NCBI RefSeq assembly: GCF_009650215.1
Contig: NZ_CP045851.1
Span: forward strand, 2,073,001 to 2,137,000
Direction of reading: 5' to 3'
Length of the DNA stretch: 64,000 bases
From: Actinomarinicola tropica
Lineage (GTDB): Bacteria; Actinomycetota; Acidimicrobiia; Acidimicrobiales; SKKL01
Position 1 is the first letter of the stretch; the number at the start of each line of letters is the position of its first letter. Below the pieces are notes generated by a model. That model did no database searches. It saw only the letters and a program-made list of their open reading frames with translations, and was not told where the DNA came from. Made by a program: the position numbers and the translations under genes. Below are positions 5,169-16,093 of the stretch, piece after piece.

Positions 5169-5244
5169 CGTATCACCCGGGCGGTCGTGCGCTCCTGATC
5201 TCCGGGCGGGACACCCCCGCTCCGGAGCAGCGAAGGAGCCAGCC

Positions 5245-5484
5245 ATGGCCGACACCCTCACCCTGGATCGCGACACGATCATGCGGACCGCCGCCCTCCA
5301 GCGCCCCGTCCGGGTGACCCTCCCCGCTCGGGCCGCCTACGACTTCGACACCTTCGTCAAGGTCCAGCGCGACATCTTCGACCGGCTCGGGCACTCGATG
5401 TGCGTCAGCGGCTTCGACATCCGCTGGGGCTTCGAGGACGACTTCGTCGTCAACGAGAAGCTCGAGATCCTCGTCAGGGGATGA
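5245..5484 (+). CDS. Small single-cysteine protein coupled to a DUF692/MNIO enzyme
   Basis: 79 residues with a good ribosome site (GAAGGAG about 9 nt before the ATG). No known domain recognised. It is mostly charged and polar, with one cysteine at residue 53 in HSMCVSGFDIRWGFEDD. Its stop overlaps the start of the DUF692 gene (ATGA), so the two products are made together. Small proteins beside DUF692 enzymes are often the peptide substrate (as with MbnA/MbnB and TglA/TglH), so this is a candidate precursor with Cys53 as a possible modification site. It could instead be a small partner subunit. Confidence 0.75.
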   Translation: MADTLTLDRDTIMRTAALQRPVRVTLPARAAYDFDTFVKVQRDIFDRLGHSMCVSGFDIRWGFEDDFVVNEKLEILVRG

Positions 5485-6956
5485 CCGTCCTCCCCGAGCG
5501 CGGCGTCGGGGTGATCCACGCCCCCGGCCTCGAGCCGCTCCTCGAGGCCGGGGGCGACCTCATCGACGTCGTCGAGATCGAGCCCCAGACGTTCTGGTTC
5601 GGCGGCGCCACCGTCGGCGACCTGGCCGCACCGGCCCGACGGATGATCGAGGCCGCGGGTCTCGACGAGCGGCCGGCGCTGGTGCACGGCGTCGGCGCAC
5701 CGATCGGCGGGACCATCCCGCCCACGGACGCCGACGTGGCGAATCTGGCCGCCGTCACCGACCTGCTGGACAGCGCGTGGGTCAGCGAGCACCTCAGCTT
5801 CAACCACGTCCACCTCGACGGGTCCGTCGCGGCGACGGGACTGATGCTGCCGCCGGTCCAGACCGACGAGAGCGCGTTGCTCGCTGCGACGTCGATCGCC
5901 TCGGTCCGGGGCGGGCTCGGCCGTCCCTTCGCCTTCGAGACCGGCGTCAACTACCTCGCCCCTCGGCCCGACGAGGTGCCCGACGGCGTGTGGTGGCGGA
6001 CGATCGCCGAGGCTGCCGACTGCGGCATCCTCCTCGACCTGCACAACGTGTGGTGCAACGCCCGCAACGGGCGCCAGGCACTCGACGAGCTGTTCGACGA
6101 CCTGCCGCTCGATCGGGTCTGGGAGATCCACCTCGCCGGCGGCGAGCAGGTGGACGGCATCTGGCTCGACGCCCACTCGGGGCTGGTCGACCCGGAGCTG
6201 CTGGCGATCGCCGCCGACGTCGTGGCCCACCTCCCCTCGCTGCGCGCCATCACCTTCGAGATCGTCCCGGAGTACCTGCTCGCGCGTGACGTCGCCGCCG
6301 GCGACATCCGCTCGATGCTCGAGCAGCTCCACCTGCTCTGGGATGCCCGACGCACCGCGCCGCAGGTCATCGGTGGCGGCGAGCCTCCGCCGGTCGCTCC
6401 CCCCGGCGACCTGGACGGGCTCGCCGCCGCCGAGGTGCGGCTCGCCCGGGCCGTCCTCGACCCCGACGCCGACGCCGAGCCGGGCGTGCGGGTGATGAGC
6501 CGCCTGGTCGACGCCATCCGCCGGGGGCTCACGGTGACGGTGCTGCCGCTGTCGATCCGGCTCGTGCGCCTCACCCGCGGGTCCGACGCCGTCGCGGCGG
6601 CGCTGACCGAGTGCCACCGGCGCCACACCCCCGAGCTGCACGCCGACGCCGAAGCGGCGCACGTCGCCGTCGTCCTGCGCGAGATGTACGGGTCGTCGGT
6701 GGCCCACCTGCACTCGGTGCTCGACTACGAGCTCGCACTCGTCGACCTCGCCCGCACGGGTCGGGCGCGCCCGGTCGCCTTCGCGTGCGATCCGGTCGCC
6801 CTCCTCAGCGCGCTCGGCCGCGGCGAGCTCCCCGACGACCTCTCGATCGGGGCGTTCGAGCTCGACCTCGTCGCCGACGACGCGATCACCGCAGGCTGGG
6901 GGGTTCCTCGCCCGTCCTCCCGGGTATGGCGGCACCCATGGGAGCACCAGTCCTGA
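5481..6956 (+). CDS. DUF692 / MNIO-type multinuclear iron oxygenase with C-terminal extension
   Basis: 491 residues from the ATG at 5481 (overlapping the upstream stop). Residues ~8-285 form the DUF692 TIM barrel. Ordered metal-ligand-type motifs are VHGVGAPIGG, SEHLSF (~101), FETGVNYL (~151), LLDLHNVWCNA (~182), EIHLAGG (~215), DAHSG (~230) and FEIVPEY (~258). Characterised DUF692 enzymes (MbnB, TglH) use a di- or tri-iron centre and oxygen to rearrange cysteine or other residues of ribosomal peptides. A further ~200 residues after the barrel form a helical domain not needed in the minimal enzymes. It may replace the separate substrate-presenting partner. No transporter or leader peptidase is seen nearby. 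Confidence 0.85.
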   Translation: MTVLPERGVGVIHAPGLEPLLEAGGDLIDVVEIEPQTFWFGGATVGDLAAPARRMIEAAGLDERPALVHGVGAPIGGTIPPTDADVANLAAVTDLLDSAWVSEHLSFNHVHLDGSVAATGLMLPPVQTDESALLAATSIASVRGGLGRPFAFETGVNYLAPRPDEVPDGVWWRTIAEAADCGILLDLHNVWCNARNGRQALDELFDDLPLDRVWEIHLAGGEQVDGIWLDAHSGLVDPELLAIAADVVAHLPSLRAITFEIVPEYLLARDVAAGDIRSMLEQLHLLWDARRTAPQVIGGGEPPPVAPPGDLDGLAAAEVRLARAVLDPDADAEPGVRVMSRLVDAIRRGLTVTVLPLSIRLVRLTRGSDAVAAALTECHRRHTPELHADAEAAHVAVVLREMYGSSVAHLHSVLDYELALVDLARTGRARPVAFACDPVALLSALGRGELPDDLSIGAFELDLVADDAITAGWGVPRPSSRVWRHPWEHQS

Positions 6957-8032
6957 ACGGATCGGACCGCAGCCTCGAGGAGCTGGTCGATTCCTGGGAC
7001 GGTGAGGCCACCGTGATGCGGCGGGCGCGCTCGACCGACGCGCTCATCACGATCGGCGTCCACTCCACCGCGCTCGGTCCTGCCGCGGGTGGATGCCGCA
7101 TGCGGACCTATCGCTCGTCCGCAGCTGCTGTCGAGGACGCACACCGACTGGCGACGGCGATGACCTCCAAGCTCGCGGTGTGCGGCCTTCCCTTCGGCGG
7201 CGGCAAGGCCGTCCTCGCCGTCCCGTCGATCCCCGAGGGCGACGCGCGACGCGACCTGCTGCTCGAGCTCGGCGAACTGGTCGAGAGCCTCGGCGGTCTC
7301 TACATCACCGCCCCCGACATGAACACCTCCGACGTCGACATGGACGTCGTCGCCGAGCGGACCTCGCACGTCTTCTGCCGCACCGCCGAGTCCGGGGGGT
7401 GCGGCAACCCCGCGCCCGCCACCGCGGCCGGCGTCGAAGCCGGCCTGCGGGCCGCGATCGCGCACGTCTTCGGCTCCGACGACCTGGACGGCCGGCGCGT
7501 CCTGGTCCAGGGCGTCGGCGCGGTGGGCGAGCGCCTGGCCCGTCGGCTCACCGACGACGGGGCCGACGTCGTCGTCTGCGACATCGACGAGCAGCGCGCC
7601 GACCACCTCGCTCGCCGCATCGGCGTGCGCGCGATCCCCGCGGCGGCCTGGCTCGACGAGGAGTGCGATGTGTTCGCCCCGTGCGCCGCCGGCGGCATCC
7701 TCGACGAGGGGACCATCCCGAGGCTGCGCTGCCGCCTCGTCGCCGGCGCGGCCAACAACCAGCTGCGCGAGCGGGCCGACGCCGACCGCCTCGCGGCGCG
7801 CGGCATCACCTGGGTGCCCGACTACGTCCTCAACTCCGGCGGCGTCCTCAAGGGCGTCGGCATGGAGCTGCTCCACTGGCCGCCCGAGGAGGTCGCCAAC
7901 CGACTCCAACAGGTGGGCGAGGACGTCGCGAGCCTCCTGCGCCGGGCCGACACCGAGGGGCAGACGCCGCTGGCCGTCGCCGAGACGCTGGCCTCCGATC
8001 GCATCGACGCCGCCCGCGCCACGAGGGTCTGA
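6926..8032 (+). CDS. Glu/Leu/Phe/Val dehydrogenase family enzyme (leucine/valine dehydrogenase-like)
   Basis: 368 residues from the ATG at 6926 (a second in-frame ATG at 6938 is equally possible). Size and motifs match octameric leucine/valine dehydrogenases, which oxidatively deaminate branched-chain amino acids with NAD+. The sequence shows GPAAGGCRMR, the catalytic-Lys region TSKLAVCGLPFGGGKAVL, the active-site Asp in TAPDMNTSDVDMD, GNPAPATAAGV at the domain hinge, and VQGVGAVGERLARRL as nucleotide-binding turn. The start overlaps the end of the MNIO gene by 19-31 nt, so it may share its transcript. Preferred substrate cannot be decided from the sequence. Confidence 0.9.
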   Translation: MAAPMGAPVLNGSDRSLEELVDSWDGEATVMRRARSTDALITIGVHSTALGPAAGGCRMRTYRSSAAAVEDAHRLATAMTSKLAVCGLPFGGGKAVLAVPSIPEGDARRDLLLELGELVESLGGLYITAPDMNTSDVDMDVVAERTSHVFCRTAESGGCGNPAPATAAGVEAGLRAAIAHVFGSDDLDGRRVLVQGVGAVGERLARRLTDDGADVVVCDIDEQRADHLARRIGVRAIPAAAWLDEECDVFAPCAAGGILDEGTIPRLRCRLVAGAANNQLRERADADRLAARGITWVPDYVLNSGGVLKGVGMELLHWPPEEVANRLQQVGEDVASLLRRADTEGQTPLAVAETLASDRIDAARATRV

Positions 8033-10328: not shown

Positions 10329-10340
10329 TCACTTGTCATC
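10301..10340 (-). repeat. Tandem 10-bp repeats, candidate integrase arm sites
   Basis: Three exact copies of a 10-mer (ACTTGTCATC on the plus strand, GATGACAAGT on the minus) at 10311-10340, with a degenerate fourth copy at 10301-10310. They overlap the stop codon of the doc gene. Related GATGACAA motifs occur at 10172 and at 26400 and 26411 beside attR, hence the suggestion of integrase arm-type binding sites. Confidence 0.5.
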
Positions 10341-10730
10341 AGGCGCTGGCGGCTCGACGTGCTGACGCAGCCACTCCGCGACCGCAGCTTCGTCGAGCTC
10401 ACCGGCCGCCACTCCGAGCATCAGGCTCACGGCGTGGTCGGTACCGACTTCGAGGCGATGGCCGTTGAGGGCGAGGAAGATGGTGAGCGACTGCCAGGCG
10501 AGGCGCTTGTTGCCGTCGGGAAGCGGATGGTTCCGTGCGATGCGGACGGCGAGCACGGCGGCCTTCTCGACGATCGAGGGGTAGAACTCCTCGTCGCCGA
10601 AGCCGGCTTGGGGCGCATGGAGCGCCGAGTCCAACAGATCGACCCGTGCGGCGCGCGACAGCGTCCGGGCGTCGATCCCGGTGACGGCCTCCGCGATCAA
10701 GAGCGCTTCCGCCAAGCTCAGGTACCTCAC
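10329..10730 (-). CDS. doc: Doc/Fic-type toxin
   Basis: 133 residues from a GTG. The Fic active-site motif is NHPLPDGNKRLAW near residue 67, matching HxFx(D/E)xNKR of Doc toxins, which phosphorylate elongation factor Tu (or AMPylate in other Fic proteins). The Phe of the motif is Leu here, and Gly replaces the Ala of DANKR. The start overlaps the upstream antitoxin stop by 4 nt (GTGA), the usual toxin-antitoxin layout. It probably stabilises the mobile element. Confidence 0.85.
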   Translation of the reverse strand: MRYLSLAEALLIAEAVTGIDARTLSRAARVDLLDSALHAPQAGFGDEEFYPSIVEKAAVLAVRIARNHPLPDGNKRLAWQSLTIFLALNGHRLEVGTDHAVSLMLGVAAGELDEAAVAEWLRQHVEPPAPDDK

Positions 10731-10939
10731 TCGGCGAGGCGGTCGAGGATCTCCTTGTCCCGCTCGACGAGGGTGTGCAGCAGGGTCATGAACTCTTCGT
10801 CCTGGCGCACCCGGTCGACCTCGGCCTGCAGCGCGTCGAGGATCACCTGGTTGACGCTGACCCCCCGAGCGCGGGCGACCACCTCAGCGGTGTCTGCCAA
10901 GTCCTCGGGGAGCCGAACGGTCGTCGCCTTGCGCGTCAT
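10727..10939 (-). CDS. Ribbon-helix-helix antitoxin for Doc
   Basis: 70 residues. The N-terminus (KATTVRLPEDLADTAEVVARARGVSVNQVILDAL) is a ribbon-helix-helix DNA-binding fold: one strand TVRLP followed by two helices. The C-terminal half is a charged helix that likely binds the toxin. Such pairs autoregulate their promoter. A short palindrome-like ATGACGTCAT lies directly at the start (10937-10946) and could be part of the operator. Confidence 0.82.
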   Translation of the reverse strand: MTRKATTVRLPEDLADTAEVVARARGVSVNQVILDALQAEVDRVRQDEEFMTLLHTLVERDKEILDRLAE

Positions 10940-12884: not shown

Positions 12885-12985
12885 AACCTCATGCTCTCGA
12901 GTCCGCATGCGCCGCGCCACCCTCCGCTCGCTCCGAGCGGGCCAGATGGCTCGGGTCATTCGTCGCCTTGGGCCACAATCGAGGG

Positions 12986-15900
12986 ATGGAGGGAGCGGGG
13001 CCGGACGATCTACAGCCAGGGCTGTACGACACGGTTCTCAGTGAGTCGCTCGCTGAGCAGATCGATGGCCTCGACGCCCGGCGACTACGCGCGCAGCTCG
13101 CCGGGGTAGAGCCAGCCGAACTACCCGACCGGATCGCGGAGATCATCGCCGGATGGGCCCGGGATGTGGTCGAGGCCGCCTCGTCGGCGGACCGTCACGA
13201 CACGGCGGTTGCACTGGCCAGCAGCGTGCTGGATCTGCTCGTCGAGCGCCACGGGGCCGCTGCCGATGATCGGTCGCGGCTGAAGCCCGGCCTGCAGCGC
13301 CTCCTCGCCGTCGAACCGTTGGCGCCCACCGGCGAGCCCGTGTCCATCCCGCGCCCACTCACGCCGCTGCGCGACACCGTGTTGATGACGAACGCCCGTG
13401 ACCAACCGACCGTCGGTCGGGAGATCGTGGCGGAGATCGAGTCAGCCGATCGCATCGACCTCGTACTGGCCTTCATCCGCTGGACAGGTGTGCGTGACCT
13501 ACTGCCATCACTCCGTCGGCACACAGGTGCCGGCAAGCCGTTGCGGGTGATCACCACCACCTACACCGGCAGCACCGAGTTACGGGCGCTCCAGGCGCTC
13601 GCCGACGTCGGCGCCGAGGTGAAGGTCTCCTACGACACAGCCAGCACGCGGCTCCACGCCAAGGCGTGGTGCTTCCACCGGGCCACCGGGTTCTCCACGG
13701 TCTACATCGGATCGTCCAACCTCACGTTCTCGGCGCAGGTCACCGGACGGGAGTGGAACGTCCGGGCCTCCGAGCGCCGCAACTCCGACCTGATCGAGAC
13801 CTTCGACAGGGTCTTCGAGACCTACTGGGCCGATCCGCACTTCGAGCCCTTCGACGCTGCGCAGTTCGCCGAGGCTACCGCTCGGGAAGTCGACGATTCG
13901 ATCGCCACGCCCTTCACCATCGAGCCCTACCCGTTCCAGCGTCAGATCCTCGAGCAACTCGAAGTGGAACGCCGCCGTGGCCGGAACCACAACCTTATCG
14001 TCGCCGCCACGGGCACAGGCAAGACCGTGGTCGCCGCCCTCGACTACAGGCGGCTCCGAAGCCGGCTCGACCGGTCCCGGCTCCTGTTCGTCGCCCATCG
14101 CAAGGAAATCCTGGAGAACTCGCGGACCACGTTCCGCCATGTGCTGCAGGACGGAAGCTTCGGCGAGCTCTGGGTCGGCGGCCAGAAGCCACAGCACTGG
14201 GACCACGTCTTCGCTTCGATCCAGTCACTGTCCGCTGGTGACCTCGAAGCGCTCGACCCCGAGCAGTTCGACGTGGTGATCGTGGACGAGTTCCACCACG
14301 CCGCCGCGACCACCTACTCGACGCTGCTCGACCACCTCGGGCCGGCGCATCTCCTCGGTCTGACCGCGACGCCCGAGCGGACCGATGCCCTCGACATCCT
14401 CCGGTGGTTCGACGGTCGCATGGCCGTCGAACTGCGACTGTGGGACGCCCTGGAGCAGGACCTGCTCTCGCCGTTCCACTACTACGGCATCCACGACGGC
14501 ACCGACCTCCGCCACGTCACCTGGCGGCGAGGCCGCGGCTACGACACCGCCGAGCTGACCAACGTCTACACCGGCGACGACCTGTGGGTCGGCAAGGTCC
14601 TCGCTGCAGTCCGCGACAAGGTGGGCGACCCTCAGTCCATGCGGGCCCTCGGCTTCGGCGTGAGCATCGCCCACTGCGAGTTCCTCGCCGATCGCTTCAA
14701 CCGAGCCGGCATCACCGCCCGCGCCGTATCTGCCAACAGCCCCACCAGCGAACGCGACGATGCCCTCCGGGCACTCGCGTCGGGCGATGTCCAGATCCTG
14801 TTCTCGGTCGACCTGTTCAACGAGGGCATCGACGTCCCCGCCATTGACGTCGTGCTCATGCTCCGACCCACCGAGAGCGCGACCGTGTTTCTCCAACAGC
14901 TCGGTCGCGGCCTACGACGCAGCCACGGCAAGGACGTCCTCACCGTCCTCGACTTCGTCGGCCACCAGACCAAGACGTTCCGCTTCGACCTTCGCTACCG
15001 CCGCATGCTCGGCCGGACCCGTCGAGAGATCGAGCGCGACGTCGACGAGGACTTCCCCTACCTCCCCGCCGGCTGCCAGGTGAAGCTCGACCCCGTTGCC
15101 AAGAAGATCGTCCTCGACAACATCCGCACCGCCCTCCCCACCCGATGGCCCGAACGAGTACGCGAGCTACGGGAACTCGGTGATGTACCCCTCTCGACCT
15201 ACCTCCACGAGACGGGCCTCGAGCTCGACGACGTCTACCAGGGCGACCGCTCCTTCACCGAGATGCGCCGAGCCGCAGGGCTTCTTGCGACTCCTGCGTC
15301 TGGCGGCGAGGGCCGCCTCAGCCGGGGCGTAGGACGGCTGCTGCACGTGGACGACCTGGACCGAATCGAGACATACGGAGCGCTGCTCAGCGGCCAGGAG
15401 CCGGTCAGCGAGCCCGACCTCGATGAACGGCAGATCCGGCAACTCAACGGCTTGCTGCTGACCTTGCTCGGTCCCAAGAAGGGCGAGTTCTCGTCCCTCG
15501 ACGGCGCCGCCCGGCACCTCTGGTCACACGACGCCATTCGCGCCGAACTGCTACAGCTGCTGCCACTCCTCGATGGCCAGGTGCGCCATCTGCACGCGCC
15601 GCTTGGGGTCCTGCAACCGGTGCCGCTCCAACTCCATGCCACCTACACGCTCAAGGAGGCCATGGCAGGGTTCGGCGCCGCGACGGTGCCCGCTCCGAAC
15701 GACATCCGTGAGGGCGTCTTCTGGCACGAGCCCAGCCAGACGGACCTCTTCTTCATCACGCTGGAGAAGACCGAGAAGCACTACTCACCAACCACCCGCT
15801 ACCGGGACTACGCCATCAGCGACCGGCTGTTCCATTGGGAATCGCAGTCAACCACTTCAGAGGCGAGTACCCCAGGCCAGCGCTACATCAACCAAGAGGC

Positions 15901-16093
15901 GCGGGGCACGAACGTGGTGCTGTTCGTCCGCTCCAGCCGCAAAGACGTCCAGGGGCGCACGCGGCCGTATTTCTGCGCTGGTCGAGCGCGCTACGTCGAG
16001 CACCGATCGGAACGTCCGATGCAGATCACCTGGGAGTTGCATGACCCACTCCCTGGTGACGTCTTCAGCGCCTTTCGTGCCGCCGTCGCCTGA
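12986..16093 (+). CDS. PLD nuclease-SF2 helicase-DUF3427 fusion protein
   Basis: About 1035 residues (ATG at 12986; a TTG at 12968 is also in frame). Order of domains: an N-terminal ~130-residue region; a phospholipase-D-like nuclease with one HxK motif, RLHAKAWCFHR at ~220, followed by YIGSSNLTFSA; a superfamily-2 helicase with Walker A ATGTGKT (~341), DEFHHA (~433), TATPERTD and motif VI QLGRGLRR; then a DUF3427-type C-terminal half. This architecture recurs in genomic islands and probably cuts and unwinds DNA, plausibly in phage or plasmid defence. No partner gene is adjacent, so it may act alone. Confidence 0.88.
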   Translation: MEGAGPDDLQPGLYDTVLSESLAEQIDGLDARRLRAQLAGVEPAELPDRIAEIIAGWARDVVEAASSADRHDTAVALASSVLDLLVERHGAAADDRSRLKPGLQRLLAVEPLAPTGEPVSIPRPLTPLRDTVLMTNARDQPTVGREIVAEIESADRIDLVLAFIRWTGVRDLLPSLRRHTGAGKPLRVITTTYTGSTELRALQALADVGAEVKVSYDTASTRLHAKAWCFHRATGFSTVYIGSSNLTFSAQVTGREWNVRASERRNSDLIETFDRVFETYWADPHFEPFDAAQFAEATAREVDDSIATPFTIEPYPFQRQILEQLEVERRRGRNHNLIVAATGTGKTVVAALDYRRLRSRLDRSRLLFVAHRKEILENSRTTFRHVLQDGSFGELWVGGQKPQHWDHVFASIQSLSAGDLEALDPEQFDVVIVDEFHHAAATTYSTLLDHLGPAHLLGLTATPERTDALDILRWFDGRMAVELRLWDALEQDLLSPFHYYGIHDGTDLRHVTWRRGRGYDTAELTNVYTGDDLWVGKVLAAVRDKVGDPQSMRALGFGVSIAHCEFLADRFNRAGITARAVSANSPTSERDDALRALASGDVQILFSVDLFNEGIDVPAIDVVLMLRPTESATVFLQQLGRGLRRSHGKDVLTVLDFVGHQTKTFRFDLRYRRMLGRTRREIERDVDEDFPYLPAGCQVKLDPVAKKIVLDNIRTALPTRWPERVRELRELGDVPLSTYLHETGLELDDVYQGDRSFTEMRRAAGLLATPASGGEGRLSRGVGRLLHVDDLDRIETYGALLSGQEPVSEPDLDERQIRQLNGLLLTLLGPKKGEFSSLDGAARHLWSHDAIRAELLQLLPLLDGQVRHLHAPLGVLQPVPLQLHATYTLKEAMAGFGAATVPAPNDIREGVFWHEPSQTDLFFITLEKTEKHYSPTTRYRDYAISDRLFHWESQSTTSEASTPGQRYINQEARGTNVVLFVRSSRKDVQGRTRPYFCAGRARYVEHRSERPMQITWELHDPLPGDVFSAFRAAVA

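Follow-up and report, generated by a model that had tools for sequence, protein, structure and literature searches.

The MNIO (DUF692) enzymes form a large family with few known substrates. In the bufferin (BufA-BufB-BufC) and oxazolin (HvfA-HvfB-HvfC) systems, the precursors have Sec signal peptides and several Cys residues, the DUF2063-RRE partner has a separate gene of its own, and a DoxX gene is often present (PMC12452194). In the TglHI (3-thiaglutamate) system, the partner TglI is likewise encoded by a separate gene and consists of a helical N-terminal domain and an RRE-like C-terminal domain (PMC10880893), and a Cys has to be attached to the C-terminus of the substrate TglA. Natural precedents for fusion are provided by MovX (Vibrio methanobactin-like), which carries a C-terminal RRE, and ChrH, which carries an extra domain (PMC13419390); these single-chain MNIOs have other substrates and other neighbours. 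In the adjamnio families, signal-less Cys proteins are encoded directly before MNIOs that have PME-type 2 partners, and the representatives named in the main text of Antoine et al. 2025 come from other bacterial groups; that text also mentions MNIO-nitroreductase fusions and names no fusion of an MNIO to its partner (PMC12452194).

A locus that resembles each of these systems in part was found in the 64,000-nucleotide stretch of DNA analysed here (the window), and its features are as follows.

5233 to 5238, plus strand: AAGGAG, resembling a ribosome-binding site, 6 bases before the ATG of the small ORF (read directly from the sequence)
5245 to 5484, plus strand: gene for a small protein of 79 aa, the presumed substrate or precursor (ORF, and homologues adjoining the enzyme in four other genomes)
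5401 to 5403, plus strand: TGC codon for Cys53, the presumed modification site (sequence and an invariant alignment column)
5481 to 5484, plus strand: ATGA overlap of the small-gene stop and the enzyme start, consistent with translational coupling (sequence)
5481 to 6956, plus strand: MNIO (DUF692) enzyme of 491 aa with a fused C-terminal domain (PF05114, AF2 model, fold match to TglH)
5481 to 6356, plus strand: TIM-barrel MNIO domain, residues 1-292, with the iron-ligand residues (comparison with the TglH ligands in PMC10880893, homologues, predicted fold)
6414 to 6878, plus strand: likely fused partner-like domain, about residues 312-466 (secondary structure, pLDDT, matches of profile A5)

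As in the bufferin and oxazolin systems, the precursor gene lies directly before the MNIO gene, Cys is the presumed target and a partner function appears to be present, but the small protein shows no sign of a signal peptide and has one Cys, the partner is apparently fused and there is no DoxX. TglI is a separate gene product whereas the partner-like domain here is part of the enzyme, and Cys53 is internal and genetically encoded, unlike the Cys added to TglA. Unlike MovX, the fused part apparently includes a DUF2063-like helical region and not only an RRE. The small domain may already be among the adjamnio families of Antoine et al. 2025, a comparison made with the main text of that paper only. 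The locus is probably a minimal MNIO cassette, made up of a substrate and a holoenzyme with its partner fused on, in which Cys53 would be oxidised, possibly to a 5-thiooxazole, and the product kept in the cell.

The pair was present in five genomes, the window's own and those designated G063, G290, G251 and G719, which belong to five different genera and families, and each of them has the small gene immediately before the enzyme gene on the same strand. In the sample from the same order (198 genomes), the small protein was found only in the window's genome and G063, and the full-length enzyme in the same two, with five others carrying only distant MNIOs. When 396 genomes of the phylum were searched, the small-protein profile gave real matches in G000, G290 and G251, and the enzyme profile gave full-length matches (>740 bits) in exactly these three, all other MNIOs scoring <117 bits and matching in the barrel only. 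The chance of both features falling in the same three of 396 genomes, if independent, is about 1e-7, a figure that serves only as a guide because the genomes are related. The pair in G719 was found in addition to these. None of 28 other MNIO loci had a clear copy of the small domain, and the cassette is missing from another genome of the window's genus. The phylum was sampled, not exhaustively, and the scan of other phyla used only the single sequence from the window; over this range the cassette is rare and patchy in distribution.

The 4-base overlap recurs as NTGA in G290 and G063; G251 shares it, as CTGA, provided that its enzyme starts at CTG, and in G719 a gap of about 34 bases separates the two genes. 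Co-divergence of the five pairs was not significant in a Mantel test (11/120 permutations). All other neighbours differ between the five genomes, and the flanking acyl-CoA dehydrogenase and ELFV dehydrogenase genes were not counted as parts of the cassette for this reason. Leader removal and export genes are usual, not universal, in RiPP clusters. A short precursor gene co-conserved beside a modifying enzyme, by which such clusters are recognised, was found in 5/5 genomes, and no conserved peptidase or transporter was noticed around the five loci, as judged from ORF translations. An earlier sequence-only reading of this DNA had proposed a translationally coupled two-gene MNIO system, and the ATGA overlap at 5481-5484, the strict association of the pair and the PF05114 match described below all bear this out. 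That reading had named two findings that would count against it, a small protein not conserved beside the enzyme and a Cys53 that is not conserved; the small protein was conserved there in all five genomes found, and Cys53 was invariant in all seven domain copies.

Translation of the enzyme begins at 5481, the longer reading frame from 5400 to 6956 taking in an upstream extension, and the enzyme is the only MNIO in the window's own genome. It matched PF05114 (MbnB_TglH_ChrH) over residues 55-253 with an E value of 2e-35 and 122.8 bits (Pfam gathering cut-off 25). Scores against characterised NCBIfam subfamilies were all below the curated cut-offs, the best being the Bufferin maturase BufB (equivalog NF050167) with 100.8 bits against a cut-off of 310, followed by HvfB (70.2) and ApyH (69.5). 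The iron ligands of TglH are H71, H107, E151, D184 and H216 together with N187, D229 and H231 (PMC10880893), and their counterparts here are H69, H104, E153, D186 and H217 together with N189, D230 and H232, all eight of which are invariant in the five enzyme homologues, in agreement with the metal-ligand motifs noted from the sequence alone. E260 is likely, from an alignment that is loose at this point, to be the equivalent of TglH E258. TglH, HS_1138 and MbnB are the nearest solved structures both by sequence and by the fold of the AF2 model of the enzyme (mean pLDDT 78.5). The model was closest in fold to TglH (8hi7_B; Z 29.3, rmsd 2.7, 276 residues aligned), MbnB (7dz9_B) gave Z 25.9, and the next, unrelated folds were sugar epimerases at Z about 17. 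As the profile, the ligand set and the predicted TIM-barrel fold all fit, the product of 5481-6956 is an MNIO.

The C-terminal domain is modelled by AF2 as six helices (residues 312-426) followed by a beta-alpha-beta unit (430-463), an arrangement that may correspond to the two domains of the TglHI partner. The full-length fold search was uninformative on this domain because the barrel fills the match list. A profile of the domain (A5) was searched against 922 stop-to-stop ORFs from the 28 other MNIO loci, and the best three matches, though individually weak (E 0.0024, 0.021 and 0.27), were each the ORF immediately after an MNIO, a position held by only 57 of the 922 ORFs, so that the chance expectation for all three is about (57/922)^3. 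One of them is a bona fide DUF2063 partner (E 1.3e-21) from a Paraburkholderia cluster in which a DUF2282 (bufferin) gene is present as well. A three-gene MNIO operon in G029 (L006, 1193-3098) encodes an 80-aa CxxC protein (GCVPCGRLSF), an MNIO and a separate partner-like protein, and the last of these aligned with A5 with an hhalign probability of 82.8 over 153 columns. The similarity between the CxxC protein and the window's small protein is marginal (hhalign 31.7%), and this operon may be an unfused, distantly related version of the window's pair.

Taken together, the individually weak partner matches make it likely that the C-terminal ~170 residues are an MNIO partner fused to the enzyme, an identity that is supported but not proven. 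It is unlikely that the small protein is the substrate of a barrel that acts without a partner while the C-terminal domain has a separate function. No match to Pfam, and no DUF2063 signature, was found for any of the five C-terminal domains, nor did the domain match any PDB sequence, and ChrH provides an example of an extra domain of unknown function (PMC13419390), all of which would suit such a separate function; against it stands the placement of the top three of the 922 ORFs directly after MNIO genes, one of them encoding a DUF2063 protein. The enzyme had been credited from sequence with a C-terminal domain of ~200 residues and the locus with no leader peptidase, transporter or separate partner protein. 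The extra domain is present, with a partner-like part of ~170 residues, and no conserved peptidase or transporter was noticed in the ORF translations around the five loci, while the statement on the partner has to be revised, the partner being apparently within the enzyme itself.

The small ORF is, on comparative sequence grounds, a real gene, because four further genomes encode domains 26-51% identical to its product beside the same enzyme. Scanned against Pfam, NCBIfam and PADLOC, the small protein had no match, and comparison with PDB sequences gave nothing significant. The AF2 model is weak (pLDDT 63), with the order helix, strand, helix (34-48), a low-confidence loop (54-57) and two strands, and its best match in a fold search against the PDB had a Z of 3.1; no fold was assigned on account of these two values. 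In this low-confidence model, residues 54-57, directly after Cys53, are the least certain stretch of the domain.

Cys53 is the sole Cys of the 79-aa protein and lies in the context L-G-H-x-x-C-x-S-G-F-D-I. Only one small domain is present in the window's own genome, and G251 and G719 each encode two tandem copies in one protein, giving seven copies in the five genomes. G49, C53 and G56 are invariant in all seven, and the conserved loop reads L-G-[CH]-x2-C-x-[S/T]-G-x-D-I; three copies, the window's among them, have His in place of the first Cys of LGCxxC. Conservation does not extend to the residues before the domain, hence no sign of a leader peptide was seen. The linker between the two tandem domains of G251 (L053, 9874-9910) carries DASLNPQPLPPKD, and the string NPQPLPP was not found in the set of papers searched.

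If the small protein is the substrate, the changed residue could also be one other than Cys53, with the enzyme hydroxylating or cleaving at, for example, D58 and Cys53 only anchoring the protein to the iron or binding a metal. In other systems, the targets of MNIOs include Asp, Asn, Phe and homocitrulline (PMC13174530), and D58-I59 is kept in six of the seven copies, but one copy has N-P in its place, only G49, C53 and G56 are invariant and the best subfamily score is that of the Cys-modifying BufB, so that a target other than Cys53 appears improbable. Alternatively, the small protein could serve as an accessory, carrier or regulatory subunit, with the real substrate, be it another protein, a peptide or an amino acid in free form, located elsewhere. 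This would suit a small protein that is possibly a folded domain and not a leader-core peptide of the usual type, and an MNIO that acts on a Cys added to the scaffold peptide TglA is known (PMC10880893). The alternative deserves little credence, as the partner role is apparently filled by the fused C-terminus and what is then missing is a substrate, the pair has no other conserved gene around it, and the Cys is invariant in a domain that is tandem-duplicated as in some known substrates (PMC12452194).

In the favoured reading, the small protein is the substrate and Cys53 the probable site of oxidation. The diiron centre of MbnBC is mixed-valent, and its ferric iron is bound by the Cys thiolate of the substrate. 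HvfBC depends on its partner to attain the active mixed-valent Fe state, and a fusion of HvfB to HvfC made by engineering is highly active (PMC13419390). Extended to the window, this analogy would make the enzyme a holoenzyme complete in one chain, the iron-dependent MNIO barrel together with the C-terminal partner domain, with Cys53 as its target. This partner domain, which is predicted to be helical and DUF2063/PME-like with a short RRE-like beta-alpha-beta end, would position the 79-aa cytosolic protein and may help the iron cluster to reach its active state. The conserved loop with Cys53, which follows the central helix, would be presented to the Fe centre, where the Cys53 thiolate may bind iron and O2 would drive its oxidation, possibly with loss of four electrons to give a 5-thiooxazole, as happens in the BufB/HvfB group.

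The 5-thiooxazole is a first guess and not a conclusion, as BufB gave the best subfamily score though one far below the cut-off, and Cys chemistry is not guaranteed, because both BufB and HvfB scores are far below their cut-offs and MNIOs also modify other residues. The known thiooxazole cases involve exported peptides with several Cys residues, whereas here there is a single Cys in a protein that is possibly folded. As neither a signal peptide nor a conserved peptidase or transporter was seen, it is suggested that the modified protein stays inside the cell, perhaps for metal binding or redox. We infer the substrate role of the small protein, together with the chemistry at Cys53, the product and its cellular function, from these comparisons; the earlier proposal of a small Cys protein as a probable substrate kept as a modified protein thus gains support and stays putative.

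A more specific version, in which a partner-fused MNIO oxidises the single Cys of a folded cytosolic protein without leader, proteolysis or export and the modified Cys acts as a cofactor or metal site built into the protein, is put forward tentatively; if true, this MNIO would be a protein-maturation enzyme and not a peptide natural-product enzyme. The cassette would reduce an MNIO system to two genes, a matched substrate and an enzyme with its partner built in, and the natural fusion parallels the laboratory-made HvfBC fusion, which was built to obtain active enzyme. It also lends itself to two questions, namely what the partner does to tune the iron cluster, and whether the reach of MNIOs extends from peptides to the maturation of folded proteins.

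Further candidates for the small protein were examined and set aside. A scan of genome contigs gave one match, in Granulicella (68% over residues 5-27), and no MNIO gene was noticed in the stretch read. Weak matches of profile A1 in G553 and G496 were to ribbon-helix-helix-like ORFs lacking the Cys motif, the match in G386 contained internal stops, and that in G988 was to an ORF apparently opposite a J-domain-like gene, as judged by eye, with no MNIO. A tblastn search of plasmids with four versions of the small protein, and a search of viral contigs for the small protein, found none.

Downstream of the cassette, the ELFV-type amino acid dehydrogenase gene (6938-8032, plus strand) begins with an overlap of about 19 bases with the end of the enzyme gene, and was not seen beside the pair in the other four genomes; its best NCBIfam match was the tryptophan dehydrogenase ScyB, with 242.6 bits against a cut-off of 600. 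A Fic/Doc-type ORF (10329-10939, minus strand; PF02661, E 7e-10) is overlapped just upstream by a ribbon-helix-helix ORF, and the two are likely to be a toxin-antitoxin pair. A large helicase encoded at 12968-16093 (plus strand) is made up of a PLD-like nuclease N-terminus, a ResIII helicase and DUF3427, and is a possible defence-type protein.
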